From a virus: a stretch of 45,296 bases of DNA. Positions within the stretch are counted from its first letter, which is position 1. Every line of letters begins with the position of its first letter. The DNA is taken from IMG/VR virus record IMGVR_UViG_3300020165_000035, positions 1 to 45,296 of that record. One strand, 5' to 3'. Positions 5,955 to 45,296 of the stretch are shown piece after piece. The notes under the pieces were generated by a model, which made no database searches, was not told where the DNA came from, and saw only the letters and a list, made by a program, of their open reading frames with translations. The translations under genes were made by a program, and so were the position numbers.

Positions 5955-7059
<1,105 letters not shown>

Positions 7060-7073
<14 letters not shown>

Positions 7074-18887: not shown

Positions 18888-18896
18888 AGTTTATAT

Positions 18897-20852
18897 TTAG
18901 CTCGTCGGAAATGCTTGTGTTGGAACAGAGAAGTTCGCAGTATATCGTGCGACACCTTTTGTGATTCTGAAATCTTCGATGAATCCTTCCCAGGCACTGC
19001 CTGACCCATTACGGGATGCATCCATTATCTGCAAAAAGTTTGAACTATAATTTTGAGTATCGTTCGTTACAGTACGTCCCAGAACACCGTTGACAAAAAT
19101 TCTTAGGTCAGTGCCTTCTCGTGTTACTGCTACGTGATTCCATGCGTTAAGATTTAATGGAGTCCCAGAAGTATCAAAATTACTAAATCCTCTAATCACT
19201 CTTACTTCGTGAGTAACTGCGATTTGTTGTAACCCTAAACCGTCATTCACCCCTTCATTTGAATGGGTAGATGCCATCTCGTAGTTACCTGACTGTAACG
19301 TGTAAAACCACCCTTCCATGGTGAAATCACCAGCACCTAATACTCCGCCTGTGCCTGTGAACGTACTTTCAATTCTGCCATTAGTGCCATTTCCTTCCAT
19401 TGACTTTGCTTGGAATAATGTAGTCAATCCCGCTTCCGCTTGGACACCATTAACTGTGACTAGTGAATTATTAAAAGTAGAAACATCACTTGCGTATGTT
19501 GTAGGACTACTCTCACCATCAACAGCATTGACTAAGAATACTACGTTAGCAAAGTCGTCATCTATATTACTAGTGTCTGTAACGACTATTGTAACATCGC
19601 CCACTTCTGCTGAGTTTTCTGCACCGTCTGGGATTGCTCTATACTGCCAAGTAACAGTACCGCCGAAGGGTGCTGCTGGTGGAGTGTATAAAAAAGTCCC
19701 TGCAAGAGAGTCGATAATAGTAACTGTTCCCTGTGCGGGTTGTGACTGCACCGTATGGGTGATATCACCTACAGTTTCAAACAAATCGTTGCTTGCAACA
19801 TTCATTGTCAAGGTTTCTGCGCCAGAGTAATTCAGTGTGAACGAATCGTCTACTGCATCATCAACCCCAGCATTAACCGGACCATTGATAGCAATGTTAA
19901 TATTTTCTATTACATTTTGCCCTACATCTACTCCAACAACAAAAGCGTCTGGTCCATAAGCATCTGGATTGGGTGTATACGTCCACGTTCCATCAGAGTC
20001 TATAATTGCTGTGCCAAACTCTGGCGCGGTTATTATTGAGTAACCTTGTATATCATTGAGGGTATTTTTTAACGATATAGTATTAGTCGCAGTCTGCCCC
20101 GCATCTTCTAATATATTAGAAGGAAGACTTGCGCTATCTCCACTCAAAATATTAGACTCGACTTTACAGAACGCAAGCAAACCACCGGTATCGAAATCCA
20201 AGAGACTTGTTTCGACTGTTCTGATAATAGATGATGCCGATTCGACGACTTTATACATGTTAATTTTCATTTCAAAATCGAGCGTGTATATAATAGTTCT
20301 TCGCGTTTCGATTGCCCCTTCATAATCGTCTTGCATTACCACACCATCAAGTTTAATAGGCGTGTCTTCTGTGATATCGTATCCGGTAAGAGGTTTTACT
20401 GTTACAGTATATTGTGGAGTAAAGTAAGGTATAATTTGTTCGACTACTTGAAGCGCGTCATCTTGACTTCTAGCATATACATTTAATTGAAATTGTAAAT
20501 TATAAGGAACAGGATTGTACATCCTTCGTGCCTTTGTGGAGTCGGACGTTCCCGCAATAGTTCTTGCACCTACCTTAGATAACTGTCGAGCAGCATCATA
20601 TTGTATTGCTAAAATTTCAAAAGACATCCTTGGAAGTTTGATCGCAATCTGTCGCTCTTGTTGCTCACCGATTTCCATGCCAGAAATTCTGTCCATGAAA
20701 TCTCGACGAGGTGCGTAAGATAAAGGAACTTTGGTCTCGTTAATAACATCACCCGCGCTATTATGGCGAACGACATATATGTTATTGAACAATGATCCGA
20801 ATACCGCAACTGCTTTACGAATTCTTTCGTGATAAAACCAATTACCTAACAT
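18897..20852 (-). CDS. 15: Tail terminator/sheath stabiliser gp15 with LamG-like C-terminal extension (651 aa)
   Basis: Residues 1 to about 225 match T4 gp15: WFYHERIRKAVAVFGSLFNNIYVVR, VPLSYAPRRDFMDRI, KLPRMSFEILAIQYDAARQL, NPVPYNLQFQLNVYARSQDDALQVVEQIIPYFTPQY. In T4 this 272-residue protein forms a hexamer that caps the tail and joins it to the neck. Here about 425 extra residues follow. First comes a cadherin/VCBS-like stretch (GTWTYTPNPDAYGPDAF and TFLYTPPAAPFGGTVTW, residues about 290-420). Then comes a LamG-like jellyroll at about 435-651 with FTMEGWFYTL, LNAWNHVAVTREGTDLRIFVNGV and IEDFRITKGVARYT. The frame is continuous with no stop. The ATG overlaps the gp14 stop (TAATG). Confidence 0.9.
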   Translation of the reverse strand: MLGNWFYHERIRKAVAVFGSLFNNIYVVRHNSAGDVINETKVPLSYAPRRDFMDRISGMEIGEQQERQIAIKLPRMSFEILAIQYDAARQLSKVGARTIAGTSDSTKARRMYNPVPYNLQFQLNVYARSQDDALQVVEQIIPYFTPQYTVTVKPLTGYDITEDTPIKLDGVVMQDDYEGAIETRRTIIYTLDFEMKINMYKVVESASSIIRTVETSLLDFDTGGLLAFCKVESNILSGDSASLPSNILEDAGQTATNTISLKNTLNDIQGYSIITAPEFGTAIIDSDGTWTYTPNPDAYGPDAFVVGVDVGQNVIENINIAINGPVNAGVDDAVDDSFTLNYSGAETLTMNVASNDLFETVGDITHTVQSQPAQGTVTIIDSLAGTFLYTPPAAPFGGTVTWQYRAIPDGAENSAEVGDVTIVVTDTSNIDDDFANVVFLVNAVDGESSPTTYASDVSTFNNSLVTVNGVQAEAGLTTLFQAKSMEGNGTNGRIESTFTGTGGVLGAGDFTMEGWFYTLQSGNYEMASTHSNEGVNDGLGLQQIAVTHEVRVIRGFSNFDTSGTPLNLNAWNHVAVTREGTDLRIFVNGVLGRTVTNDTQNYSSNFLQIMDASRNGSGSAWEGFIEDFRITKGVARYTANFSVPTQAFPTS

Positions 20853-30288: not shown

Positions 30289-33200
30289 TTATCCCTCTAA
30301 TGCTAGAATATAAGGTGTTAATACTGCGAACAAAGATCTATCGAAAGTCGTCCCTGTAATTGTTCCCGACTCACGGTTGATGGTTAAATCGCCACCAATT
30401 CGGAAGTCGCCTAATTCGTCTGTTGCTGTAAAGTAAACCAAACCAAAGTTAGGTTGTGCTGCATCCGCAGAATCAAAAACTACTTCTAAATCTTTCTTAG
30501 GAATACCACCGTTTTGTGGAACCGCCGCAAACATGTTAGTACCGGATCCCACAAATTCAAAGGTGTGAGAAGAAGCACTAATCAAAGATCTTTGATGAAA
30601 GTTCGATGTTTGTTCCCCTTTCATGTTTTTATTTAGGGGCGGAGCAATCGTTATATCGTAAGAACCTGTCTCTGGAAGGATAGAACTGTAAGTAAATGCT
30701 GCACCCCGGTAAGGAATGGATACGTCAGCAGTTCGCTCTGGTGCGCTAATAGCAAGATAGTCTGCACTTCCTCCAACTGCAACCCCTTCACCAAACCTGT
30801 CATCATTAAAGCTGGCATTAGTATCACCATTGAATTGTCGGTTTTGAGGTCTAAGAATATTAACCTCAGTCCAATTAGTGCCACCACGTTCGAATATATA
30901 TGCCCCAACAGTGTCGTTCGCAACTTCTGAGGCACTACTTCTGTTCGCTCCGACTACTACAATATCACCTTTATCATTGATATCAATAGAACGTCCCATC
31001 CTAGTACCTTCTCTACCATCAGAAGGATACAGAGTTTCTTGATGCGTCCAATTACCTTCTTTAAAAGCAAACATGTCTACGCCACCAGTCTCATCGGTGT
31101 AACCAAAGACATAGTTTGAACCGTCCCATGTACCAATATTAGGTGAACTAATGGTTAATTGATTTGATGCTGGAATATTAATAACAGTAGTCCCATCTGT
31201 CAAGTTAGCATCTCTGTCTTCATAGTTTGCATTTTCAAATGATCCAGAATATAAAGTTTGTCCGATTGTAAATTTTTCTGCACTATCGACTAAAATATTT
31301 GACACGCCTACACTAGATGCTTGTGCGCGAGAGACAACCGTATTACCCGAAGTAGGATTAGCAAATGCCGCATATGTAGCATCAGGATTCATTGCCACGA
31401 TGTGATCAGAGATCGTTCCATTATTTTGAAACTGTGGTAAACTAATGTTCTGCGAGATACTGTAAGTTCCGAATTGATTCTTAGTATAGTAGTATGCAAC
31501 ATCTCCTCTCCAAGCAGCAAGTATACTACCACCGTCATTGCTTATTGCCGTCGAAGGAGCAAAAGAAGCAGTTCCTTTGGGGAAGAGTAATTTCTGGGCA
31601 AAGGTGAACCCATCAGGGTCTAATGCGGAGTCTCTGTTAAAAACGTGAATCGCACCGCTAATAAAGTTTGTGTCAGAATCAAATTTATTAGAAATACAAA
31701 TAGTATTCCCGTCACCCGATATTGATGTTCTCTTTCCAAATTGTCTGGTTTGTCCATTTTTAGTAGGAGACGATGATACTGAATCTTCGAGGAAATGGGT
31801 TTGCGACCAAGTAGAACCATCCTTCTCGAAAACATAAGCAGCACCATGCAAGGTAGTCGTGTCACTATAACCTGTAACATATCGTGCATTCTCTGCACCG
31901 GTAACAACTACTTTGCCGTCAGCACTTATTCCGGATTGTTCTGGCGCATAACCAAAAGAACTTCCCGTCCCATTGTTTATTGGGTTAACAGGGGCGATAG
32001 ACTGAACAAACTGCCAAGTCTTAGATCCTTCTGCTCGTTCCCAAAACTCTTGATATGATGCGTCTCTATTTGCCCAAGTAAGTGTAGTGTCATCGCTCGA
32101 CATAGCAATACCAGCACTGTGATAATTCCCTCTGGGCGTGTCACCGGTTTCGTATACGATCTGATCAGTGTTACCACTAACACCCCAGTTCTGCAAAATC
32201 TCATCGGACACATCTAAAACGGTGTAGTAGTAATTATCGGAATCAAATTTAATCGCATCATTATAATTAGGTTTCTTAAAATCACCTAATTGTAAAGAGT
32301 AATTTGCGGCATCGGTGTTTGTGATTCCGTTGATACGAATAATGTCATCATTCAAATTGTAATCGGCATGTAAAGAACCATTGTAAATTGATTCGGAACC
32401 ACCGGTTGAAACCAAACCACGGTCACCAAAAGAAGAGTTCGAGTTCGTAACAGAACATTGCCCACCCGTTTCAGCAAGAATAGATGTTGAGGTAGAAATC
32501 GTGAAACAAGACACTAACTGAGCATATGCACGATTGGTTAAGTGAACACCAATACCGTCTGCATTAAACTGTGTGAACGCATCAAGCACCATTGATCGTA
32601 GACCAGACACCTTAGAACCATCGATCTTCATACCAATACCCGATGTTGTCAACGAAGTACAGTTTTGTACATATGGTGATTGGGTAATGAACGGACCTGT
32701 GATCGCATCGTTTCTCGGATCGAATGCTACACAAGCAGCACCGTTCTGATGGTCGCGGAAAGTAACCTCTTTCACATAACAACCATTGTCAACCCAGAAA
32801 ATATCACTATCTACATTACGTGGGCGAATTGTAGTTGCCCTCAAAGCATCACCAATGATAGAAGTCTTAGGTGGGAGTTTGATCGGATTGTTAACAGTGT
32901 AGTCACCAGACTTCAAAAAGATAGTAGTATCGGTCCCTTGGTTCTGAGCAGTCTCGGATGACTGACGAATAATAGTCTGTCTTTCTGGTGTCGGGACACT
33001 ACTTAAAGTAATGCCCTGCTCGAACTTAGACCATGCGGTATAGATCTCGGGTGTTGTCGTAGAAATCCCTATACTAACAAGGTCTGGAAACACTAACGAA
33101 TCGTAACCTACTGCAAGTCCTGTCGGGTAGTTGTATTGGTAGATAGCAGTTCCGTTAAAGAAATCACCTAATTGGAAAGTTCCTATACTAGATTGCTCAA

Positions 33201-36200
33201 CAGCATGAATAATAATATCTAAGAGGTTTTGGATCTTAGTAATATTACCTGAATCTGTTCCTGCCGTATAACCCGCAATAATAGATTTTAACTGTTCGTA
33301 TGCTGCAATCGTTGCAGTCAGTTCACTTTGACCAAGTCGATCAGCATAACCATTACCAAAGATAGAGAAGTATGCTCGCATCGCAATAGAGGTTGCGCTG
33401 TTACCACCGTACTTGAGATCATAGGTCAACGCATCCAGAATGTATCCCACGTCTCTGCGACAAGTTGCCTGATCGTAAGAGTATGTTGGGAAAACGCTAT
33501 TGGCATAAAATACTACTTGCTCTTGTAACGTAGATCTGATAGCATGAAAAGTACTGCTCTCGCCAGTGAAAGTAGGCACAACAACAGGAATTGCTGATCC
33601 ATCTGCGGCATTGATTGCGTCTCTAATCCTTTCGATTAAAGCAACAACCCGAGCTTCTTCCGTAGAAGTCGTGACGTAATTATTAATGATAGTTTTTAAC
33701 TGTTCGTATGCAGCAAGTGAGGCGGTAATTTCACCGGCACCTAATTGATTAGTCCAGATGTCTGCGAGACCATCTAAACTTTCGTATGCAGTTGTGGTGT
33801 TCTCGATGTTAAGGTCTTTACCGACCCAGTATGAACGAGCATTGGTATCAGTAGCAAAAGAACCGTCGAAAAGAATATCGTGAGTCACGGCATCTACAAT
33901 GTATCCAACGTCTCTTTGACACTTGTCTTGATCGTATTCTAACGAATCGAAATTGTTTTGAATCCAAGTGATCAACTGACCCTGAATGGTTCTTCGATTA
34001 ACGATCAGAGCGTTTGCTGCATTTCTCTTATCGGCACTCTCACTTCCAGTTCCGGTAAAGTCGATAGAGGTTCCGTCTTCTTTTCCGTATGCGGTGGACT
34101 CTTCAAGGAGTTCAGTGATCTGTTTGATACGTGCCGTAACGAAAGTCTGACTTGTTGCGTTAATACCAGATGCGTTGATCTGGTCTCGCAAGTAATTGAT
34201 AGAATCGATTGTGTATTGTAATTGATCGCTCTGAACTTTTTGTGCATTACCTCTTTGGTATGCGAGTCCAGCAGTGATGCTATTATAGTCTGTATTGTTC
34301 TGTAAGTCAAGAGCAATCGCATCAATTATTAAACCGGTGTCTCGTTCACACTTGTGTTGATCGAAACTGCCTACAATGTTTTGATCATTTACATAGTCGA
34401 TGACATCGTTCTGAATGATCAATCTGTTTGCAACGATGGCATCAAAATCTGTTGTTGTCAATCCCGCAGTATCCACTTCTACTTCCGCAGGAATACTATC
34501 GGTATTACCAGCAGTAATAACGCCAGTGACCAGACCCATGAGTTCATCAACTCTTGCATTTTCAGAAGTATAATTCTTAATCTCTCCTGCAAGAAAATTG
34601 TACGCCGCAACTGTAGGTGCGGTTTCTCCTGAACCTAACTGGGAATTTGTTCCTGCAAAATATGAAAGTGCAGCATTACGAGAGGCGGTGTTACCGCCAT
34701 ACAACAAATCAATATTTATTGCATCAATTACGAATCCTGTATCTCTTTCGCACTTGGCTTGATCATATGCCAGTCCAGAATAGTTAGCAGTAATGAAGTT
34801 AGTAGTTGCTGTGATCAAAGCACTTCTCTGTGATCGTATAGTTCCGTGGTCTATATCTCTAAACTGTGAAGATGCATACGTTCCGTTTGCGGGATAAGTA
34901 GCATAGGTTTGAACTGTTGTTACGGTTCCATCAAGAACATCTATCACACGTTCAAACAACGTGTCTACCGTTGCATCAAGTGCGCCAACTAATGCTTTAA
35001 CTTTTGACTTGGCAAAATTAACAGCATCAATAGTTGCTTGTTTCTGATCGCTCAACACATAAGCAGTATTTGCTCTTAGGTATGAATTACCTGCCGCAAT
35101 TGTCCAAAAATCTGATCCAAGTAAAAGATCACGTGCAACAGCATCAAGGATTAATCCAACGTCTCTTGCACACTTACCGGCATTATATCCACCAAGTTTA
35201 GTGGACCAATTCAGATCAACATAGTCAATCGTGGCAGCCTGAGCACCTACGATTCCTGCAACGATAGCATCATATTCGGTAGTAATCAATCCAGTAGTAA
35301 CGATATTTACTTCTGCGGAAAGACCCGTGGTATTACCCGCCGTGATAACACCGGTGATTTCATCCACAAGTCCACCAAGAACTGTTTGTTCCGGAGCAGT
35401 CGTAACCACTGCGTTAATCCGTGTTTTAAGATCATTGTATGCCGCAACAGTTGCAGTGCCTTCTCCGAAACCTAACTGAGATACTGTACCTGAGAAATAT
35501 GCCAGAGCATTTGTGCGAGTCGCAGTGTTACCACCATACTTGACATCATGGGATAAACCGTCTATGATATAACCAACATCTCTTTCACATTTTGCTTGAT
35601 CGTAACCAAGACCTGGATAGTTGGCATTGATGTAAACCGTGGTATCAGAAATTAATGTTGCACGATTTGCTTGAAGATTCGTAGTTGCCGCAATTCGATC
35701 TGCCGTCTGGTATGTTGCCCCTGCCGTAGTCACATAGTTGATTGTTGGGTAAACCGTTTGCGTTGCGTTAATGACATCGGTAACATTCTTGAAAAGGTTT
35801 TCGATGTCAGTATCGGAAGTAACACCAGCAAGAGCAATAATGTAATCTCTCGCAAAGTTGATACCCGCAATAGTTGCTTCGTTCTGATCGCTCAATACAT
35901 AAGCAGAGGAAGACCTATTGTATGCCCAACCAGCAGTAATCGTATTGTAGTCAGTGCCTAATAATAGATCACGTGCAACCGCGTTGACAATTAGACCGAC
36001 ATCCCGAGAACAAGTTGTCGCATCGTATGACCCTGTGAGGAAATCGTTTGCGGGGTTGTTCAGGTAATCTAGGACCGCATCCTGAATTGCTTCTTTGTTA
36101 GTCTGAATAGCATTAGATGCTGCATTCGCGTCAGTCTGTGCTTCGACAGGTGGATCAGGAAACTCTAATGCAGAGGCAGTGCCGCCCACAAGAATCTCAA

Positions 36201-36753
36201 TGATCTCATCGAAACCAGAAGCAACACGTAGTTTAGAAGTCGCGTCAGTTTTTACTGCGGGAACAGAAACCATACCGAGACGTTCTTCGTTGATTGCTCG
36301 TCTAGTCTGATAGAGTTGTTCTGCGGTAACTTTAATCGCGTTACCACGCTTATACGATTGTCCAGCAGTTACCGCACCATAGTTTGTGCCTAATGCCATG
36401 TCATAACGAACACCATCCATAATAAGGTTAAGGTCTCGTTCACATGTAGTTTCGTCAAACTTGAAGTTTTCTTTTGCATATACAACTGCTACTGCCGAAT
36501 CCAAAGAGGAGAAAGCATTCATCAAAGATTTGCCATCATTTCCAGGAACGCCCGACTTAGAAACATAATAGACGTTATCTACATCTTCGGCACCAATTGA
36601 ATTGATACTGACTTCGCCGTTCTTGTCTTTCTTAATATACGCTTTACCATCGTGCGTATTGATTGCAATCTCGCCGAAGTCTATTTCATTAAGAGTCGGA
36701 GCACGTCCTGGTATGTCGCTGCGCGGAAATAATATTTTTTTTCTGGATGCCAT
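30289..36753 (-). CDS. Giant fibre/adhesin protein with CxRD repeats, beta-helix and beta-propeller-like region (2154 aa)
   Basis: The N-terminus is RKKILFPRSDIPGRAPTLNEIDFGEIAINTHDGKAY, a marine phage fibre start I recall. Eight units of about 140 residues follow, each marked by YDQxKCERDVGYIIDA, with the Cys near residues 104, 248, 388, 528, 666, 801, 942 and 1095. Residues about 1250-1445 look like a pectate-lyase-type beta-helix (IFLKSGDYTVNNPIKLPPKTSIIGD). Residues about 1560-2000 hold six or seven blades like FG-GAP/WD repeats (GISADGKVVVTGAENAR, SIDINDKGDIVVVGANRS). The last 150 residues (SSHTFEFVGSGTNMFAAVPQNGG) resemble the C-terminus of cyanophage virion proteins. A role in host adsorption is inferred. 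Confidence 0.85.
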   Translation of the reverse strand: MASRKKILFPRSDIPGRAPTLNEIDFGEIAINTHDGKAYIKKDKNGEVSINSIGAEDVDNVYYVSKSGVPGNDGKSLMNAFSSLDSAVAVVYAKENFKFDETTCERDLNLIMDGVRYDMALGTNYGAVTAGQSYKRGNAIKVTAEQLYQTRRAINEERLGMVSVPAVKTDATSKLRVASGFDEIIEILVGGTASALEFPDPPVEAQTDANAASNAIQTNKEAIQDAVLDYLNNPANDFLTGSYDATTCSRDVGLIVNAVARDLLLGTDYNTITAGWAYNRSSSAYVLSDQNEATIAGINFARDYIIALAGVTSDTDIENLFKNVTDVINATQTVYPTINYVTTAGATYQTADRIAATTNLQANRATLISDTTVYINANYPGLGYDQAKCERDVGYIIDGLSHDVKYGGNTATRTNALAYFSGTVSQLGFGEGTATVAAYNDLKTRINAVVTTAPEQTVLGGLVDEITGVITAGNTTGLSAEVNIVTTGLITTEYDAIVAGIVGAQAATIDYVDLNWSTKLGGYNAGKCARDVGLILDAVARDLLLGSDFWTIAAGNSYLRANTAYVLSDQKQATIDAVNFAKSKVKALVGALDATVDTLFERVIDVLDGTVTTVQTYATYPANGTYASSQFRDIDHGTIRSQRSALITATTNFITANYSGLAYDQAKCERDTGFVIDAINIDLLYGGNTASRNAALSYFAGTNSQLGSGETAPTVAAYNFLAGEIKNYTSENARVDELMGLVTGVITAGNTDSIPAEVEVDTAGLTTTDFDAIVANRLIIQNDVIDYVNDQNIVGSFDQHKCERDTGLIIDAIALDLQNNTDYNSITAGLAYQRGNAQKVQSDQLQYTIDSINYLRDQINASGINATSQTFVTARIKQITELLEESTAYGKEDGTSIDFTGTGSESADKRNAANALIVNRRTIQGQLITWIQNNFDSLEYDQDKCQRDVGYIVDAVTHDILFDGSFATDTNARSYWVGKDLNIENTTTAYESLDGLADIWTNQLGAGEITASLAAYEQLKTIINNYVTTSTEEARVVALIERIRDAINAADGSAIPVVVPTFTGESSTFHAIRSTLQEQVVFYANSVFPTYSYDQATCRRDVGYILDALTYDLKYGGNSATSIAMRAYFSIFGNGYADRLGQSELTATIAAYEQLKSIIAGYTAGTDSGNITKIQNLLDIIIHAVEQSSIGTFQLGDFFNGTAIYQYNYPTGLAVGYDSLVFPDLVSIGISTTTPEIYTAWSKFEQGITLSSVPTPERQTIIRQSSETAQNQGTDTTIFLKSGDYTVNNPIKLPPKTSIIGDALRATTIRPRNVDSDIFWVDNGCYVKEVTFRDHQNGAACVAFDPRNDAITGPFITQSPYVQNCTSLTTSGIGMKIDGSKVSGLRSMVLDAFTQFNADGIGVHLTNRAYAQLVSCFTISTSTSILAETGGQCSVTNSNSSFGDRGLVSTGGSESIYNGSLHADYNLNDDIIRINGITNTDAANYSLQLGDFKKPNYNDAIKFDSDNYYYTVLDVSDEILQNWGVSGNTDQIVYETGDTPRGNYHSAGIAMSSDDTTLTWANRDASYQEFWERAEGSKTWQFVQSIAPVNPINNGTGSSFGYAPEQSGISADGKVVVTGAENARYVTGYSDTTTLHGAAYVFEKDGSTWSQTHFLEDSVSSSPTKNGQTRQFGKRTSISGDGNTICISNKFDSDTNFISGAIHVFNRDSALDPDGFTFAQKLLFPKGTASFAPSTAISNDGGSILAAWRGDVAYYYTKNQFGTYSISQNISLPQFQNNGTISDHIVAMNPDATYAAFANPTSGNTVVSRAQASSVGVSNILVDSAEKFTIGQTLYSGSFENANYEDRDANLTDGTTVINIPASNQLTISSPNIGTWDGSNYVFGYTDETGGVDMFAFKEGNWTHQETLYPSDGREGTRMGRSIDINDKGDIVVVGANRSSASEVANDTVGAYIFERGGTNWTEVNILRPQNRQFNGDTNASFNDDRFGEGVAVGGSADYLAISAPERTADVSIPYRGAAFTYSSILPETGSYDITIAPPLNKNMKGEQTSNFHQRSLISASSHTFEFVGSGTNMFAAVPQNGGIPKKDLEVVFDSADAAQPNFGLVYFTATDELGDFRIGGDLTINRESGTITGTTFDRSLFAVLTPYILALEG
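33430..36480. repeat. Eight-copy divergent coding repeat (about 420 bp period)
   Basis: Within the 2154-residue gene the CxRD unit recurs at about 36440, 36010, 35588, 35168, 34754, 34350, 33928 and 33468. Two sub-types are visible: one continues DLLLGTDYNTITAG, the other HDxxYGGNTATRNAxxYFxG. They mostly alternate, giving a superperiod of about 280 residues. DNA identity between units is modest, so this expansion is old. Confidence 0.8.
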
Positions 36754-36779: not shown

Positions 36780-38255
36780 TTAGGCGTATGTGCCACAGTC
36801 GATTACTTCAAATTCAAGCGATTGGGCATATATCTTGGGTGAAAATTCCCATCGTGCCGAATCGACTCCGTTGTTTGCATAACGAGCATACGCATAGGGA
36901 GATGCTGAATCTCCTATCGCAATACCGGCACCGTTAGCGAGAACAGCGGTTGGTGTTCCATTCGCAATAACAATCTGTTGATCTTCTACTAATAATTCTG
37001 TTGTTGAGATATTAGTCTGTTCGCCGTAAACAAAGAGATTTCTATTTACTATCAAGTCACCATCAATTGTGGTAGAGTCTAATGTCGTAAGACCATCTAC
37101 ATTAAAATCGACATCTACTTGAACATTCTGTTTGAAGGTTGCGCTTGCTGAATCAAACGTTGCAAGCAATGGGAAAGACGGTCCACCATTCCTAAATTCT
37201 ATTGCACCATTATCATCATCTGAGTATAGAACAACTTTTTGATTTGCTGTTTGAGTTCCTAGTTCTATTGCCCCGCCTTGACTTAATTCAAGTCGTGCCC
37301 TAGTTGATTGAATACCCCCACTTCTAAATTCAAGTGATTTATTATAAGTAACAAGACTAATTGACCCGCCTTCTGTTAACTCTTGCAATCGGATTTCTGA
37401 TCCAGGATTACCTTCTGGTCTGAATATTAATCCTCGATCATTAAAGGTAGGTCCAGTTGAACCATTTATAATTAACAAAGGGTCAATCGTAGTTGAGTCT
37501 AATGTTGTAAGACCATCTACGTTGAGATCTTCATTGATCTGTAAAATATCAAACGTTGCTGAGTCGAGGATGGCTTGTCTTACATGAAGAGTTCTCCATC
37601 TCTGCAAAGCAGTTCCGAGGTCATACGTATCTGTGATATTGGGTATAAGAGAAGAATTAATATCTGCACCGAAAACAACGTTATCGGTGTTCTGATCACC
37701 CACCGTAATCGTTCCGGAAGTTCCTGCTTTCAAGGTCGCTATACCATCAACAGTTAGAGTACCATCGATTTGTACGTTCTGTGTGACCTGCAGGTCGCCT
37801 GTGACCTTGGTTAAACCAGTGCCACCACGTAACACTAGGTCATTTGTTGCTTCTGTTGATACAGAGTCTTTGTTAAAATATAAAAAATCTACAAGAAGTT
37901 CGTTGAGTTTTTTATCGTCATCTACCAAAAGAGAGGATGCAGCAGTAACAATACCGCGCTGATGATTCATCATGTCGGTGAAATATTTACCGCCGATAGT
38001 ATGAATCTCAGACGAATAGTAATGCGATACCGAGTCGCCTTGGGAGTTTACATCTGGTTCATATAATATGTTACCAGCACCAATATAAAGACGATCACCG
38101 CCATTACCCAAACCGTCATCGTTAGTATCTGCTAATAAAGAATATGCTATCTCAGAAACTTGTATTAACGATTTTCCAGTACCATCTTCTACTGGCAGAC
38201 CCCTAGTTGTCGAGCGTCTTATTAATATTGTGGCATGAGAAGAATCGTGGGACAT
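36780..38255 (-). CDS. Tail-fibre-like protein sharing modules with the 2456-aa gene (491 aa)
   Basis: The protein starts MSHDSSHATILIRRSTTRGLPVEDGTGKSLIQVSEIAYSLLADTNDDGLGNGGDRLYIGAG, a start I recall from cyanophage fibre proteins. It has two to three DGLTTLDSTTIDG modules (near residues 175, 253 and 393). It ends with an ISTTELLVEDQQIVIANG unit and ARWEFSPKIYAQSLEFEVIDCGTYA. It is likely a fibre or fibre-base component. The ATG overlaps the preceding TAA (TAATG at 38255), so it is probably co-translated with the 69-residue protein. The next gene starts 26 bases on, with no exact late promoter between. Confidence 0.85.
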   Translation of the reverse strand: MSHDSSHATILIRRSTTRGLPVEDGTGKSLIQVSEIAYSLLADTNDDGLGNGGDRLYIGAGNILYEPDVNSQGDSVSHYYSSEIHTIGGKYFTDMMNHQRGIVTAASSLLVDDDKKLNELLVDFLYFNKDSVSTEATNDLVLRGGTGLTKVTGDLQVTQNVQIDGTLTVDGIATLKAGTSGTITVGDQNTDNVVFGADINSSLIPNITDTYDLGTALQRWRTLHVRQAILDSATFDILQINEDLNVDGLTTLDSTTIDPLLIINGSTGPTFNDRGLIFRPEGNPGSEIRLQELTEGGSISLVTYNKSLEFRSGGIQSTRARLELSQGGAIELGTQTANQKVVLYSDDDNGAIEFRNGGPSFPLLATFDSASATFKQNVQVDVDFNVDGLTTLDSTTIDGDLIVNRNLFVYGEQTNISTTELLVEDQQIVIANGTPTAVLANGAGIAIGDSASPYAYARYANNGVDSARWEFSPKIYAQSLEFEVIDCGTYA

Positions 38256-38473: not shown

Positions 38474-38845
38474 TTACTTTGTCACTGAAGGTGTGACTTG
38501 AATATGACCTTCAAGTATTCTTTCAATAATATAAGTGAGGTTGCCACTACCATCTGATTCACTAACATATGCCATTTCTACATCATAAACGTATCGTTTT
38601 TTAGTGTTAAGTAAATCGGTTTGTTGGTTGGTCAGCGATAAATTTACAATACCATCTGTGGGCGGATCCGCAATTATTCCTGTGAAAAGTATCTTCTCAC
38701 TAGAATCTGCACCGTAACTCGGTTTCATTGAAGCATTGACTGTATAGTCAGTTAGGTTTTTAATGCTCTTATCTTTGTTTATTAAATGCAGTTCAATTGA
38801 AACATCGGTTCCTTGATCGATTGTGATGTCTTCGTAATACGCCAT
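38474..38845 (-). CDS. Small beta-rich protein, possible baseplate/fibre adaptor (123 aa)
   Basis: The protein starts MAYYEDITIDQGTDVSIELHLINKDKSIKNLTDYTVNASMKPSYG. It continues GIVNLSLTNQQTDLLNTKKRYVYDVEMAY and ends RILEGHIQVTPSVTK. The pattern of a binding-type beta-sandwich with a closing 'RILEGxIxVTPxVT' resembles N-terminal Ig-like domains of phage baseplate upper proteins and small cyanophage fibre-associated proteins. It is first in a late transcription unit, with TATAAATA 30 bases upstream of its ATG. There is no strong ribosome site. The call is by pattern only. Confidence 0.7.
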   Translation of the reverse strand: MAYYEDITIDQGTDVSIELHLINKDKSIKNLTDYTVNASMKPSYGADSSEKILFTGIIADPPTDGIVNLSLTNQQTDLLNTKKRYVYDVEMAYVSESDGSGNLTYIIERILEGHIQVTPSVTK

Positions 38846-38892: not shown

Positions 38893-39576
38893 TTACTGAT
38901 CCGAAGATATACCTTCAATAATCCATTTTTGGAGTTCTTTTGATCGATAAGTAGTATCTAAGGTAAAAGCAATCGTCATTCGCCAATCATCATTTCTTGC
39001 TGAATGATACATTAATTTTTTAGGATCTTCTTTGTATGAGGCAAAATACCCTACTTTACATTGCCATCCAGTTTTATCTGGAATTTTAACTATCTGTTTC
39101 TTTTCACGATCTAGAAATGAAAAATGTCCTTTTCCGCTTTCACTCCAAGTAAATATAATATTATATGCACTCGCGTTAGCATTATTATGCCAACCTATAA
39201 ATCCGCCTGGCGGATAAACTGAAAATAACGCATTAGATTTAAAAGCGTTTTTAAGTTTAAACTCTTCTAATCTACTCCAAACCTTTTCCAGTAGCGACAC
39301 ATATTCTTCGCCTTCTGAATCGGGATTTAATTTAAATGTATTAAGTTGTAAACTATAACTTTTAAGGTAATCAGGAAATCCTTTATGACTGTGACCTTCT
39401 TTTAATACTTCTTTAAGATAGTCTATTCCAGTCCAGTAATCTGCTTGTTTATAAGTAAAATTATGTCCTATACAATAAAAATGTTTTAAAAAATCAGATT
39501 CCTTGCATTGTTCAAAAAACGAAAGATCATTTAAAAGTTCCAGATTTCTAATAGGAACATCCGTCATTGTGGTCAT
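38893..39576 (-). CDS. 2OG-Fe(II) oxygenase-like protein (227 aa)
   Basis: The C-terminal half has the layout of a double-stranded beta-helix dioxygenase: FSVYPPGGFIGWHNNANASAYN with H130, a core strand IIFTWSESGKGHFSFLD, and MYHSARNDDWRMTIAFTLD with H191 and R199. In this superfamily the two His plus an acid bind iron and the Arg binds 2-oxoglutarate. Here the usual HxD/E is H-N-N, so the acidic ligand is absent at position 132. I recall similar HxN proteins in marine phages, but cannot check. The N-terminal 110 residues are helical and charged. The ATG overlaps the glycosyltransferase stop (ATGA). It may hydroxylate a protein side chain or have lost catalysis; the neighbours suggest a fibre protein substrate. 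Confidence 0.6.
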   Translation of the reverse strand: MTTMTDVPIRNLELLNDLSFFEQCKESDFLKHFYCIGHNFTYKQADYWTGIDYLKEVLKEGHSHKGFPDYLKSYSLQLNTFKLNPDSEGEEYVSLLEKVWSRLEEFKLKNAFKSNALFSVYPPGGFIGWHNNANASAYNIIFTWSESGKGHFSFLDREKKQIVKIPDKTGWQCKVGYFASYKEDPKKLMYHSARNDDWRMTIAFTLDTTYRSKELQKWIIEGISSDQ

Positions 39577-40337
39577 CTTAATCTACTTCTTGCTAAACTT
39601 TCTTTTTTAGGAACAGAATTAGAATAATGAAATACAACCGGTTCTTTATCGTTACAATGATCCCATTCATATCCATGAAAGTTATTCCATCTGCAATCGT
39701 ATTCGTCATCTAATCTACCTACCAAAATATCAGAATATTTAGGTTCTCGATTTAATAACCACCATAAAGAAAATTGATCCCATCTTGCTAACGATTTAGG
39801 ATAGTTGACGGTATCAGGTGTTCCGTCAGGAGCGGAAGGCCACCACTCGCCGCTATACTGTTTAACAGTAAGGTCATACCAATCGTTCATTAGGTCTTTA
39901 ACGAGAGGTTTGGTCATATCGTAGAGACAAACTGCTCCGCACCAATCAAATGATACACCATTGCCCCATTCATATTCAGCAAAAATATATGATCTTTCGT
40001 CTGTTAGAGCAGTGAACAATACGTGCTTATCTTTAAATAAATCGAATACAGTGGGCAAGTCACCATGAATAATTTCACAATCAGCATCTATATAAAAGGT
40101 CTGGTCAAAGGGAGTGTTTGCCATCCCCCATAACTTTGCTCTTGGATGATTATCACACGTTAAAATATGATCCGCAATATGGGATCCGCCGAGATCTAAA
40201 TATTTTTGTTCTGATACTAAACAAACTTTGGCATCTGGATCAAACTCTTTAATTGAAGAAATTAAATTTAAAGCACTATAATAATAAAACTCTAATCTAT
40301 TTGCTACTACTACATACCCTTTATTTACTTTCGTCAT
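39573..40337 (-). CDS. GT-A fold glycosyltransferase (254 aa)
   Basis: The N-terminus KGYVVVANRLEFYYYSALNLISSIKEFDPDAKVCLV and the motif FYIDADCEI, a DxD at about residues 84-86 from the ATG, are typical of nucleotide-sugar transferases of the GT-A fold. The DxD binds the metal and sugar nucleotide. A later WGNGVSFDWCGAVCLYD segment and RWNNFHGYEWDH fit the acceptor side. The donor and acceptor cannot be told. The ATG at 40337 is chosen because GGA lies nine bases upstream; a TTG at 40343 is in frame but less likely. It overlaps the upstream gene by 17 bases and the downstream oxygenase-like gene by four, so the pair is likely made together. It has no membrane segment, so it acts in the cytoplasm. 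Confidence 0.8.
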   Translation of the reverse strand: MTKVNKGYVVVANRLEFYYYSALNLISSIKEFDPDAKVCLVSEQKYLDLGGSHIADHILTCDNHPRAKLWGMANTPFDQTFYIDADCEIIHGDLPTVFDLFKDKHVLFTALTDERSYIFAEYEWGNGVSFDWCGAVCLYDMTKPLVKDLMNDWYDLTVKQYSGEWWPSAPDGTPDTVNYPKSLARWDQFSLWWLLNREPKYSDILVGRLDDEYDCRWNNFHGYEWDHCNDKEPVVFHYSNSVPKKESLARSRLR

Positions 40338-40779
40338 TATCAATTTCCAAAGACTTCAATAATACAACTGCAATCCAAGCGTTCATTTCAATATCGCTTT
40401 TAGATCCTCGAATTTTAGTTCGAAGTGCTTTATCTGTACATTCACGAACCTCTTTGATTTCGAAAGCTTTCAACTTGAGTCCAAACAAATGTTCTAACCC
40501 AGCAGATCTTTCTCTCTGATTTTTTTTCAAATCAGTCTCATTTTTTTCTTTGAGTTTAGTTTTACGGCGTATGTCCGTATTTTTAGTGATTCTGTCTTCA
40601 CCAATTTCTGCGAGTAGTTGTGTCCATAATGGATTGACGCTACCGTCAGGAAGATTTTTAGGAACAGGTTGCTGTCTATTTTCGACAGTGCCATCATCTT
40701 TCTCAATCGTATAGATTGACATTGCTTCTGTTTTTTCTTTATTGACCCAAAACGGGTTACTTTGGAAATATGCTTTCAT
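40321..40779 (-). CDS. Conserved small protein of unknown function (152 aa)
   Basis: The protein starts MKAYFQSNPFWVNKEKTEAMSIYTIEKDDG and has a proline-rich loop (QQPVPKNLPDGSVNPLWTQLL). It then has a very charged helix (RRKTKLKEKNETDLKKNQRERS) and a C-terminal helical region with KLKAFEIKEVRECTDKALRTKIRGSKSDIEMNAWIAVVLL. AAAGGATG lies just before the ATG. The helical, charged character and its place after a long fibre gene recall tail-fibre assembly chaperones, but no family is recognised. It lies 48 bases after the peptide-repeat gene and overlaps the glycosyltransferase start. Confidence 0.75.
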   Translation of the reverse strand: MKAYFQSNPFWVNKEKTEAMSIYTIEKDDGTVENRQQPVPKNLPDGSVNPLWTQLLAEIGEDRITKNTDIRRKTKLKEKNETDLKKNQRERSAGLEHLFGLKLKAFEIKEVRECTDKALRTKIRGSKSDIEMNAWIAVVLLKSLEIDNDESK

Positions 40780-40827
40780 ATATCATCCTTTAAAAATACT
40801 CAATCATCTCATATATCTAGTAGTTTA

Positions 40828-43800
40828 TTATCTCTGTGTATCCACTTCGAAAGTAATCACGACATTAACATCATCACTTCCTGCACCGACCTTACGGATT
40901 TTAATTCGTGCTTGGTCTGTAAGTGATAGATTTGAGTTTGCGTTGGCGCTTCTTCCAAGAACAGTTCTAGTTGTTCCAAGAGAAACATAACCGGTTGTAG
41001 TTCCAGTTATGGTTCCAGACACCTGAGTTATTTCAACTTCATAGTCGCTTCCGCTTGCCACTTGTCGATCATCTGCTGTTAACCACTTATCTATAAGAAT
41101 ACTGCTAGGTGTCGTTCTGTAAAAATCTCCCTGTCCTGCAAATTGTAATTGACCACTGGAGTTTAACGCAATACCTGACTCTAACACGTCACTAGTGCCA
41201 ATTGCTGCTTGACTGTTTTGAGATTTTCTAACAGTAATTGCCGTCATCTGAGCATCCGGTTGATCAGCAGATGCTGTGCTAGTATCATTTATATAGACTG
41301 CTTGTGAAGTAGCAATTCTGCGTCCACCCGTAGCAGAATCCCAAAGTTCAATCCAGAAATATTCTTCGCCTTCGGTGAGAGTATCAGCAGCAATACCCTT
41401 GAAAAGAGTGGATGACGATACTGCACCGGTTAAATTAACAGCACCTCTGGACGTTTCTCCATTATTGAAACTAAGATCATTTGCATCAGCCGTTCCTAAT
41501 TCTCCGTTGATAGTGTTATATGCATAATAAACGGTTTCATCAAATCCTGTATTTGCTCTCGTAATTCTCGTATTTAGAGTTTCTCCTTCATCAATGCTAT
41601 ATCTTGGTCCAGTCAATGATGGGAAAGAAATATCCCACCCTTGATCATCGTCTACCTTACAATACAGGGTGTAGGTTTCTATTTTCGCAAATTCTGTTCC
41701 GACTAATAATTGATCATCACCGCCAAGAAAACTTTCAGTTCTCGTTACGGTTATAAAGTCGCCTATGAACGGAGTATCTTCTATGTACGATATGTTATCA
41801 ATAAACGGAGTATCTTGAATGAATGGAATATTATCGATATATTCTTGGGTGTCGATTGTTGGTGTATTTTGAATAAAAGGTACTGTCTCATTAGTGTTAG
41901 CAATGAAAGGGATTTGATCAGTGGTAACGGTATTTCGAATGAAAGGGGTATTCCTATCAAAGTTGGTATCCCCTATGAATGGAACATTTCCTATGAATCC
42001 ACCAGGTATATCAATATTGTCTTGGAAGTTACTATTACCGATGTAATCTATAGTAGTGTTGTAATCGAAGTTAAAAATAAAATTGGAAGTAAAGTTTATA
42101 TTACCTAAAAAAGAGACGTTCTCGATGTAATCCTTCTCAAAAATGAAACTTAAAAACCCTTCTACATCTCTAATATAATCACGATCAGTAATAAAATCAC
42201 CGATATAATCCGGAGTTGTAATAGTATCTCTAATATAATCCGGAGTTGTAATAACGTCACCAATAAATGGTGGCGTTGTAATAACGTCACCAATAAATGG
42301 TGGAGTTGTAATAACGTCACCAATAAATGGTGGCGTTGTAATAATATCTTGAATATAATCCGGAGTTGTAATAGTATCTCTAATATAATCCGGAGTTGTA
42401 ATAGTATCTCTAATATAATCCGGAGTTGTAATAGTATCTCTAATATAATCCGGAGTTGTAATAACGTCACCAATAAATGGTGGCGTTGTAATAATATCTT
42501 GAATATAATCCGGAGTTGTAATAACGTCACCAATAAATGGTGGCGTTGTAATAACGTCACCGATAAATGGTGGAGTTGTAATAGTATCTCTAATATAATC
42601 CGGAGTTGTAATAGTATCTCTAATATAATCCGGAGTTGTAATAACGTCACCGATAAATGGTGGAGTTGTAATAGTATCTTTAATATAATCCGGAGTTGTA
42701 ATAGTATCTTTAATATAATCCGGAGTTGTAATAACGTCACCAATAAATGGTGGCGTTGTAATAACGTCACCTATAAATGGCGTATTGCGAATAAAGGGAT
42801 TACGAACTTCTTGAATGTATTGCTGTTGAACGTTATCAATAAAATCTGCTGTACCTTTCGTGTTGCCAATGTAGTCAATTTCTGTATTGATATTGTCAAT
42901 GTAATCGATATTGTCAATATAATTACCAATGAAAGGTATATTATCAATATAATTTACGTTCCGGATATAATCTACATTTTTAATATACGGCGTTGCAGTA
43001 TTAACGTTATCGATGTAGTCAATGTTGTCTTGATAATTAATATTATCAATGTAGTCAATATTATCAGTAAACTCCGCAAGACCTTTCGTGTTGCCAATGT
43101 AGTCAATATTATCTTGATAGTTAATATTATCAACATAATTTACGTTCCGGATATATGGCGGAGTTGTAATAACGTCACCAATGTAGTCAATATTATCTAC
43201 ATAATTGATATTATCAATATAATCTACGTTTCTAATATACGGCGTTTCAGTATTAACGTTATCGATGTAGTCAATGTTGTCTTGATAGTTAATATTATCA
43301 ATATAATTTACATTTTTAATATACGGCGTTGCAGTATTAACGTTATCGATGTAGTTAATATTATCTTGATAGTTAACATTATCAATATAATCTACGTTTC
43401 TAATATATGGTGTAGTAGTATTAACGTTATCGATGAAGTTAATGTTGTCTTGATAGATAACATTATCAATATAATCTAGGTTGGCAATATACGGCGGAAA
43501 CGTAATGGCATCACCAATGTAGTCAATATTATCAATAAAAGGTTGAAGACCCTTCACGTTATCGATGTAGTCAACGTTCTCTTGATAGTTAACATTATCA
43601 ATATAATTTACGTTGTAGATATATGGCGTTGTAGTATTAACGTTATCGATGAAGTTAATATTATCTTGATAGTTAATATTATCAATATAATTTACATTTT
43701 TAATATACGGCGTTGCAGTATTAACGTTATCGATGAAGTTAATGTTGTCTTGATAGTTAATGTTGTCTTGATAGTTAACATTATCAATATAATTTACGTT

Positions 43801-45296
43801 CCGGATATACGGCGGAAACGTAATGGCATCACCAATGTAGTTAATATTATCTTGATAGTTAATGTTGTCTTGATAGTTAACATTATCAATATAATTTACG
43901 TTTCTAATATATCCTATATCGTCTTTCAACCCGCCGATGAAGTTGATGTTGTCTTGAAAGTTGACATTATCAATAAAATTTACGTTGTAGATATAATTTA
44001 CGTTGTAGATATACGGCGTTGAAGTAAGAACGTTATCGATGTAGTTAATGTTGTCTTGATAGTTAACATTATCAATATAATTTACGTTGTAGATATAATC
44101 TAGGTTTTGGACATATGGCGGAGTTGTAATAACGTCACCAATGTAGTTAATATTGTCTTGATAGTTAACATTATCAATATAATTTAGGTTTTGGACATAT
44201 GGCGGAAACGTAATGGCATCACCAATGTAGTTAATATTATCTTGATAGTTAACATTATCAATATAATTTAGGTTCCGGATATACGGCGGAGTAGTTGTGG
44301 TATTAGCAACATAAGAAATATCGTTAATATACGGCGTTGCAGTATTAATGTTATCGATGTAGTCAACGTTGTCTTGATAGTTAACATTATCAACATAATC
44401 TAGGTTTTGGACATATGGCGGAGTTGTAATAACGTCACCAATGTAGTTAATGTTGTCTTGATAGTTAACATTATCAATATAATTTACGTTCCGGATATAC
44501 GGCGGAAACGTAATGGCATCACCAATGTAGTTAATGTTGTCTTGATAGATAACATTATCAATATAATCTAGGTTTTGGACATATGGCGGAAACGTAATAC
44601 CATCACCAATGTAGTTAATGTTGTCTTGATAGTTAACATTATCAATATAATTTACGTTGTCAATATATGGCGTTGCAGTATTAACGTTATCGATGTAGTT
44701 AATGTTGTCTTGATAGATAACATTATCAATATAATCTAGGTTGGCAATATATGGTGTAGTACCTGTGGTATTACCAATAAAAGGAATATCATCTATAAAA
44801 GGAATATTATCAATAAAATCTAGGTTGGCAATATATGGCGGAAACGTAATGGCATCACCAATGTAGTTAATATTATCTTGATAGTTAATATTATCTTGAT
44901 AGTTAACATTATCAATATAATCGGGTGTATTCGGAATATCAGCTATAAACGGCGGGGTTGTAATAGTGTCACCTATGAAAGGAGTTTCAATTACTTGAGG
45001 CGTTATAACAGGAGTATTAGTAATAAAATTCCCGACAAAATCTATGTTTTGAATGAAATCTAAATTTTCTACGTAATTAGTTTCCGTATTGACATTATCA
45101 ATGTAATCAGTTTCCGTATTGACATTATCAATGAACGGTGTTTCCGTGTTAATATTATCAATGAACGGTGTTGTCGTATTGACATTATCAATGTAATCAG
45201 TTTCCGTATTGACATTATCAATGAACGGTGTTTCCGTGTTAATATTATCAATGAACGGTGTTGTCGTATTGACATTATCAATATAATCAGTTACCG
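40828..45296 (-). CDS. Giant short-peptide-repeat fibre protein with Calx-beta-like C-terminus (5' end outside window)
   Basis: The minus frame is open from the stop at 40828 to the right edge, at least 1488 residues; I checked every triplet from 43930 to 45294 and found no stop. A TTG at 43929 gives a shorter 1033-residue reading, but it lies inside the repeats and has no spaced ribosome site, so it is not the start. The protein is almost pure repeat: hexapeptides YIDNVN / YQDNIN, decapeptides such as YIGDVITTPP and FIDNVNTATP, a perfect decapeptide array at 42181-42780, then degenerate units (PFIGD, YIEDT). From about 41750 down, the C-terminal 310 residues are globular and include a Calx-beta-like unit (SIDEGETLNTRITRANTGF ... 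TEGEEYFWIELWD). No family is recognised. A long rod ending in an adhesive domain is inferred. Confidence 0.85.
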   Translation of the reverse strand, partial: VTDYIDNVNTTTPFIDNINTETPFIDNVNTETDYIDNVNTTTPFIDNINTETPFIDNVNTETDYIDNVNTETNYVENLDFIQNIDFVGNFITNTPVITPQVIETPFIGDTITTPPFIADIPNTPDYIDNVNYQDNINYQDNINYIGDAITFPPYIANLDFIDNIPFIDDIPFIGNTTGTTPYIANLDYIDNVIYQDNINYIDNVNTATPYIDNVNYIDNVNYQDNINYIGDGITFPPYVQNLDYIDNVIYQDNINYIGDAITFPPYIRNVNYIDNVNYQDNINYIGDVITTPPYVQNLDYVDNVNYQDNVDYIDNINTATPYINDISYVANTTTTPPYIRNLNYIDNVNYQDNINYIGDAITFPPYVQNLNYIDNVNYQDNINYIGDVITTPPYVQNLDYIYNVNYIDNVNYQDNINYIDNVLTSTPYIYNVNYIYNVNFIDNVNFQDNINFIGGLKDDIGYIRNVNYIDNVNYQDNINYQDNINYIGDAITFPPYIRNVNYIDNVNYQDNINYQDNINFIDNVNTATPYIKNVNYIDNINYQDNINFIDNVNTTTPYIYNVNYIDNVNYQENVDYIDNVKGLQPFIDNIDYIGDAITFPPYIANLDYIDNVIYQDNINFIDNVNTTTPYIRNVDYIDNVNYQDNINYIDNVNTATPYIKNVNYIDNINYQDNIDYIDNVNTETPYIRNVDYIDNINYVDNIDYIGDVITTPPYIRNVNYVDNINYQDNIDYIGNTKGLAEFTDNIDYIDNINYQDNIDYIDNVNTATPYIKNVDYIRNVNYIDNIPFIGNYIDNIDYIDNINTEIDYIGNTKGTADFIDNVQQQYIQEVRNPFIRNTPFIGDVITTPPFIGDVITTPDYIKDTITTPDYIKDTITTPPFIGDVITTPDYIRDTITTPDYIRDTITTPPFIGDVITTPPFIGDVITTPDYIQDIITTPPFIGDVITTPDYIRDTITTPDYIRDTITTPDYIRDTITTPDYIQDIITTPPFIGDVITTPPFIGDVITTPPFIGDVITTPDYIRDTITTPDYIGDFITDRDYIRDVEGFLSFIFEKDYIENVSFLGNINFTSNFIFNFDYNTTIDYIGNSNFQDNIDIPGGFIGNVPFIGDTNFDRNTPFIRNTVTTDQIPFIANTNETVPFIQNTPTIDTQEYIDNIPFIQDTPFIDNISYIEDTPFIGDFITVTRTESFLGGDDQLLVGTEFAKIETYTLYCKVDDDQGWDISFPSLTGPRYSIDEGETLNTRITRANTGFDETVYYAYNTINGELGTADANDLSFNNGETSRGAVNLTGAVSSSTLFKGIAADTLTEGEEYFWIELWDSATGGRRIATSQAVYINDTSTASADQPDAQMTAITVRKSQNSQAAIGTSDVLESGIALNSSGQLQFAGQGDFYRTTPSSILIDKWLTADDRQVASGSDYEVEITQVSGTITGTTTGYVSLGTTRTVLGRSANANSNLSLTDQARIKIRKVGAGSDDVNVVITFEVDTQR
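42181..42780. repeat. Array of twenty 30-bp in-frame tandem repeats
   Basis: Twenty consecutive units of exactly 30 bases each code for ten residues on the minus strand. Types in reading order are PPFIGDVITT (nine, the first with T in place of the leading P), PDYIKDTITT (two), PDYIRDTITT (six), PDYIQDIITT (two) and a last divergent PDYIGDFITD. Several units of one type are identical at DNA level, so slippage or recombination has been recent. The + strand carries the shared core CGGAGTTGTAAT or its TGG/CGT variants in every unit. Confidence 0.95.
42781..45296. repeat. Higher-order 18/30-bp repeat field coding YIDN-type peptides
   Basis: Short units of 18 and 30 bases, all multiples of three, recur throughout. 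Larger blocks are reused: the 60 bases at 44101-44160 and 44401-44460 differ at about one base, and a block coding GDAITFPPY followed by an NYIDNVNYQDN-type stretch appears near 43500, 43815, 44200, 44500 and 44840. The field continues past the right edge. Confidence 0.9.
45091..45270. repeat. Perfect 90-bp tandem duplication
   Basis: Bases 45091-45180 and 45181-45270 are identical as read. Each 90-mer holds three 30-base units coding NTETDYIDNV, NTETPFIDNI and NTTTPFIDNI in varying order. A third copy begins at 45271 with a few changes and runs off the window. Confidence 0.93.

Follow-up and report, generated by a model that had tools for sequence, protein, structure and literature searches.

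A glycosyltransferase and an oxygenase-fold protein encoded beside giant repeat fibres of marine T4-like phages may decorate those fibres

Results

A gene pair set between two groups of fibre genes

The window, by which we mean the entire 45-kb stretch of DNA analysed (IMG/VR virus record IMGVR_UViG_3300020165_000035), carries T4-type portal, tail sheath and terminase genes. Its portal is nearest to that of phage C48C1 (Kyanoviridae), followed by those of Methylophilales phage Melnitz, T4-like cyanophages and pelagiphages. On the minus strand, the genes of interest are transcribed in the order repeat fibre, UP152, glycosyltransferase (GT), oxygenase-fold protein (OXY), fibre-assembly protein, a 69-aa ORF, and two fibre-like proteins of 491 and 2154 aa. 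Their features are as follows.

40828..45294, minus strand: giant repeat fibre of 1488 aa or more, cut at its 5' end by the edge of the contig, with repeats of the YIDNV/YQDNI/FIGDV type plus a C-terminal domain; the presumed substrate
40321..40779, minus strand: UP152, 152 aa, constant cassette member without family assignment
39573..40337, minus strand: GT, GT-A fold glycosyltransferase, 254 aa, with a UGGT/glycogenin/LARGE-like model (alignment and predicted structure)
40080..40088, minus strand: DxD motif of GT, D84-A85-D86, invariant in the alignment
39627..39629, minus strand: H237 of GT, invariant, candidate C-terminal metal-binding His by reference to GT8 enzymes
39573..39576, minus strand: stop/start overlap of GT and OXY, ATGA
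38893..39576, minus strand: OXY, 2OG/Fe(II)-oxygenase-fold protein, 227 aa, with eight DSBH strands and H130-x-N132...H191...R199
39181..39189, minus strand: H130-N131-N132 codons of OXY, with Asn at the superfamily's Asp/Glu position (H130 and N132 in 112/112 distinct sequences)
39004..39006, minus strand: H191 codon of OXY, putative distal metal ligand (112/112)
38980..38982, minus strand: R199 codon of OXY, putative contact of the 2OG C5-carboxylate (110/110 sequences having a residue there)
38474..38845, minus strand: fibre-assembly protein, 123 aa, conserved next gene (PHROGs: phrog_3304, L-shaped tail fibre assembly; phrog_1084)
36780..38255, minus strand: downstream fibre-like protein, 491 aa (PHROGs: phrog_15769)
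30289..36753, minus strand: downstream fibre-like protein, 2154 aa
5955..7073, minus strand: collagen-like protein, outside the cassette (Pfam Collagen)

The length of GT is counted from the ATG at 40337; the gene would begin at 40343 if a TTG were used. A preliminary description of this DNA had noted that the GT and OXY reading frames overlap at ATGA, and they do share the letters 39576-39573. It had also placed the pair directly between the repeat gene and the fibre cluster. The pair does lie between them, but it does not adjoin the repeat gene, since the 152-aa ORF missed in that description intervenes and overlaps GT by 17 nt. A promoter scan revealed no excess of sigma-70-like sites. Elsewhere in the window (18897-20852), an ORF of 651 aa seems to be a fusion in which a tail-sheath-stabiliser domain (phrog_227) occupies residues 1-216 and the C-terminal region resembles families of the baseplate-wedge type.

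The cassette recurs in every locus compared

A search with GT returned 160 IMG/VR loci, and we fetched 80 of these for gene-order comparison. UP152, GT and OXY occur in this order in all 80 and in phage C48C1, with the fibre-assembly gene next wherever the sequence reaches that far, and such recurrence indicates that the arrangement is not due to chance. Clustering of the 95 GT genes from IMG/VR and C48C1 at about 95% yielded 46 clusters, and OXY and UP152 are each represented in 46 of 46, the fibre-assembly chaperone adjoins in 45 of 46, and an upstream fibre, recognized by a shared C-terminal motif or by aromatic repeats, is found in all 44 testable clusters. In the one exceptional cluster (L091 and relatives), the chaperone gene lies beyond inserted large genes. 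Members of the cassette GT family range down to about 42% identity.

We also searched in reverse, using the fibre C-terminal motif alone. Wherever the contigs of the 55 loci recovered extend past the last fibre gene, the enzymes come after it. Five loci with fibres and apparently no enzymes (L188, L189, L207, L208 and L215) are explained by a contig or fetched stretch that stops within the second tandem fibre gene, and the L188 record does carry GT beyond that gene. Thus, the co-occurrence of GT, OXY and a repeat fibre across relatives that had been predicted holds from both ends, and we did not find the enzyme pair spread widely in the company of no repeat fibre. In L087, L088 and L091, inserted large genes, of fibre type or otherwise, separate GT from OXY or OXY from the chaperone gene, indicating that the enzymes stay with the fibres although the spacing varies. 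This linkage is strong support for a functional relationship rather than proof of one, because vertical inheritance explains part of it; late genes are passed on in blocks among T4-like phages, and so linkage alone overstates functional coupling.

The carriers of the cassette are a mostly uncultured family of marine T4-like phages. The sole close match in bacterial genome contigs (L244, JAAXIF010000028.1) contains the whole cassette together with phage structural genes; its assignment to a Sphingobacteriales MAG probably reflects misbinning of a phage contig. A literature search found no match for C48C1 or for this cassette.

GT resembles enzymes that glycosylate proteins

The earlier assignment of GT as a DxD glycosyltransferase is well founded. 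D84 and D86 of the motif and H237 near the C terminus are invariant, and the AlphaFold model built from the alignment of relatives (pLDDT 92.6) adopts a GT-A fold. From the sequence, these residues are compatible with a metal-dependent retaining glycosyltransferase, in which H237 would help to bind the metal. The top PDB matches of the model are UGGT (GT24), glycogenin (GT8), LARGE1 and Skp1 Gat1 (TM about 0.5-0.6), all of which act on proteins or glycoproteins. Like glycogenin and UGGT, the cassette enzyme combines a GT-A fold with a DxD motif; unlike them, it is a 254-aa single domain that matches no GT8 or GT24 Pfam profile. Searches of the window protein against Pfam, PHROGs and PDB sequences gave no useful family, and profiles of relatives add weak matches; weak Glycos_transf_2 Pfam matches occur in 17 of 43 GT members.

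Distant cellular homologues of GT (L246 and L247) adjoin tandem flagellin genes (L247:1467-9799; L246:3653-9927) and a TPR-GT41 protein. This setting is likely a flagellin glycosylation locus, and it points to protein glycosylation. Among the seven phage records of 137 kb or more, all encode a sugar-nucleotide epimerase and five have a UDP-glucose dehydrogenase over the cut-off; the two genes are adjacent in C48C1. This suggests that the phages support the supply of UDP-sugars, but genes of this kind could have other uses.

OXY has an oxygenase fold with asparagine in place of the metal-binding carboxylate

Searches of Pfam, PHROGs and PDB sequences did not assign the OXY window protein to a useful family, and profiles of relatives add weak matches. 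The dioxygenase fold proposed for it is borne out by the AlphaFold model from the alignment of relatives (pLDDT 95.6), which contains the eight strands of a DSBH (residues 114-121, 126-130, 137-145, 150-156, 161-166, 170-178, 191-195 and 199-205). 2OG/Fe(II) oxygenases account for all of the best 50 PDB matches listed, at low Foldseek TM-scores of 0.3-0.4. The active-site residues of 2OG oxygenases reside at the end of strand II and at the starts of strands VII and VIII. In the model, H130 ends strand II, H191 starts strand VII, and R199, a putative 2OG contact, starts strand VIII, with T201 close behind it. All four residues are retained.

The Asp or Glu expected of a dioxygenase-like enzyme is not present. 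Instead of H-x-D/E...H, the protein has H130-x-N132...H191, and Asn132 occurs in 112 of 112 distinct sequences. We place N132 at the Asp position by strand topology and spacing rather than by a solved structure, since hhalign comparisons of OXY with PHD2 and with a phage PF13759 oxygenase gave no meaningful alignment. OXY shares with PHD2/P4H-type enzymes the DSBH strand order, the spacing of 61 between the two histidines (as in PHD2) and an Arg after the distal His, but differs in this Asn and has only about 10-17% identity to them. Because Asn replaces the metal-binding carboxylate, hydroxylation cannot be assumed, and the name 'hydroxylase' would be premature.

Two further groups of OXY-like genes lie away from the fibres. 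In many records, a close paralogue directly follows genes for gp23 (the major capsid protein) and a gp19-like tail-tube protein and precedes UvsY and helicase genes (L110:9875-10519; C48C1 record 18267-18920, which is L229:6268-6921); it may modify another structural protein. A third group, which carries HTN[YF]D and thus again has Asn at the +2 position, is found between the genes for DnaB helicase and a NifU-like Fe-S protein in C48C1 (record 40130-40804, which is L228:4131-4805; also L239-L242). For Melnitz, a 2OG-Fe oxygenase gene has been reported in the vicinity of the replication genes (PMC9004378).

The partner fibres are rich in hydroxyl-bearing residues and poor in Lys and Pro

The giant fibres (window 40828-45294 and relatives), for which our searches found no family name, are built from short aromatic repeats, reach at least 3347 aa, and have a conserved N-terminal cap and a C-terminal YTLYVRVA. 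The repeats themselves differ greatly between fibres, but the cap is common to them, as usually is the C-terminal motif E-x-YTLYVRVA. Repeats of the form [YF]-x-G-[N/D/Q/E/T] abound in them, and in 66 distinct fibre ORFs the pattern [YF]-x-G-[NDQE] occurs 5134 times, compared with 425 in shuffled sequences. Every one of the 66 has abundant Thr (6.9-21.5%) and Tyr (5-19%), whereas the medians are 0.6% for Lys and 2.1% for Pro. This composition makes Thr, Ser and Tyr the most probable acceptors of sugar, as they are abundant in the partner fibres, unlike Lys and Pro. Asn, Asp or Tyr are possible sites of oxidation. No single acceptor residue is fixed across the fibres, whose repeats are too variable. 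Sequons (N-x-S/T) were also considered and set aside; their 1.4-fold excess over shuffled sequences is likely a by-product of the repeats.

The preliminary description had offered Lys of the Gly-X-Y protein at 5955-7073 as another acceptor. We reject this candidate on both co-occurrence and composition. Collagen repeats occur in seven of the 30 records searched, and five of the seven near-complete relatives lack them: they were not found in C48C1 (156 kb) or in pair-carrying records of 155, 153, 160 and 144 kb. The enzymes therefore occur without collagen repeats, in contrast to what is expected of an L230- or PLOD-type system.

Discussion

Covalent decoration of the fibre is the best-supported reading of this cassette, as yet unproven. 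The association with repeat fibres that underlies the original form of the idea stands, and its collagen/Lys variant does not. We consider it probable, with some reserve, that GT and OXY together modify the giant repeat fibre. Late in infection, fibre, UP152, GT and OXY would be produced together in the host cytoplasm, and UP152 might serve as an adaptor (or chaperone) that presents the nascent fibre to the enzymes. GT, as a UGGT/glycogenin-type GT-A enzyme that depends on metal, could then use a UDP-sugar as donor and glycosylate hydroxyl-bearing side chains in the repeats, most likely Thr, Ser and Tyr. OXY could act on the same fibre through its H-x-N...H metal site, oxidizing Asn, Asp or Tyr side chains and so creating or tuning acceptors, or it may have an altered chemistry or a binding role there. 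The downstream chaperone would subsequently assemble the fibre, and the outcome would be a glycan-coated adhesin, with consequences for stability, attachment to the host or evasion of recognition by it. An ordered pathway in which hydroxylation precedes glycosylation, as had been envisaged, is about half as likely as modification of the fibre by the pair; it cannot be assumed, given H-x-N in place of H-x-D/E and the separation of the two genes, unlike the fused giant-virus enzyme.

The state of the OXY metal site makes room for a simpler arrangement, in which GT alone acts directly on the fibre and OXY, having lost the triad carboxylate, is a pseudo-enzyme or lectin-like helper. This fits the H-x-N found in 112 of 112 sequences and in the third paralogue group, and glycogenin-like glycosyltransferases work without prior hydroxylation. 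We regard it as possible though somewhat unlikely, since H130, H191, R199 and T201, which a dead enzyme would not need, are all kept, and iron held by two His ligands can still function in some oxygenases. The paralogues beside gp23/tail-tube and DnaB/NifU genes count against modification of the fibre and raise the prospect that the enzymes target the host envelope or virion proteins other than the fibre and are simply carried along with the late block. In T4-like phages the order of late genes is in general conserved, and OXY paralogues do adjoin other structural genes, but the association with fibres persists to about 42% GT identity and through fibre duplications and insertions between the enzymes, and we judge such hitchhiking unlikely.

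Oxygenase and glycosyltransferase pairs are also known for DNA hypermodification, and C48C1 encodes a DNA methyltransferase, so the pair might make a hydroxymethyl base and glycosylate it, as in phages with TET/JBP enzymes. That is very unlikely, as the pair is located within the tail-fibre block in every locus and not among replication genes, most of the top fold matches of GT are enzymes acting on proteins or glycoproteins, and the related cellular GTs adjoin flagellin genes. Moreover, OXY has H-x-N, and no TET/JBP protein is among its best 50 PDB matches listed. Lysyl hydroxylation and glycosylation of the collagen-like protein, as by mimivirus L230, is extremely improbable and largely refuted already. 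The window does have such an ORF, in which Lys fills 11 of 54 Y positions, but it is about 32 kb from the pair, 23 of 30 records (five near-complete ones included) have no collagen repeats, and OXY has no sequence match of the procollagen-lysyl-hydroxylase type.

Several known systems resemble the proposed decoration of the fibre. Mimivirus L230 and PLOD3 are collagen lysyl hydroxylase-glucosyltransferases, fused in the giant virus. The cassette has the combination of oxygenase and glycosyltransferase in common with them, but it employs separate genes, requires no collagen, has a Lys-poor apparent substrate, and shows no sequence similarity that we could find. In the Skp1 pathway, a prolyl hydroxylase (a 2OG oxygenase) and the GT8 enzyme Gat1 modify one protein. 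The pairing of a 2OG oxygenase with a GT-A/GT8 enzyme is alike, and Gat1 is among the fold matches of GT, but the cassette fibres are Pro-scarce, and the acceptor and the evolutionary context differ. The cassette is best grouped with phage virion glycosylation, which is itself known: in mycobacteriophages, glycans on capsid and tail proteins have been tied to phage glycosyltransferase genes (Freeman 2023, as cited in PMC12619734). Virion glycans linked to a phage glycosyltransferase are the common idea, and for the cassette a glycan on a structural protein is predicted from its genes. Relative to the mycobacteriophage work as that citation conveys it, the cassette differs in its constant 2OG-fold partner and UP152, in a giant repeat fibre as the apparent target, and in a UGGT/glycogenin-like GT.

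A broader proposal, which we advance tentatively and consider rather unlikely as a whole, is that marine phages coat fibres of thousands of residues with glycans, that OXY represents a new 2OG-fold class with an obligatory His-x-Asn...His iron site, and that its paralogues modify other virion proteins. If true, these phages would generally oxidize structural proteins late in infection. The Asn found without exception at the metal site offers a direct test of whether the carboxylate of the 2-His-1-carboxylate motif is replaceable in nature, and the chance of new enzymology in this cassette is real. Phage adhesins set host range, and their decoration by phage-encoded enzymes has been little studied; a constant cassette in an almost uncultured group of marine phages provides a clear genetic handle.
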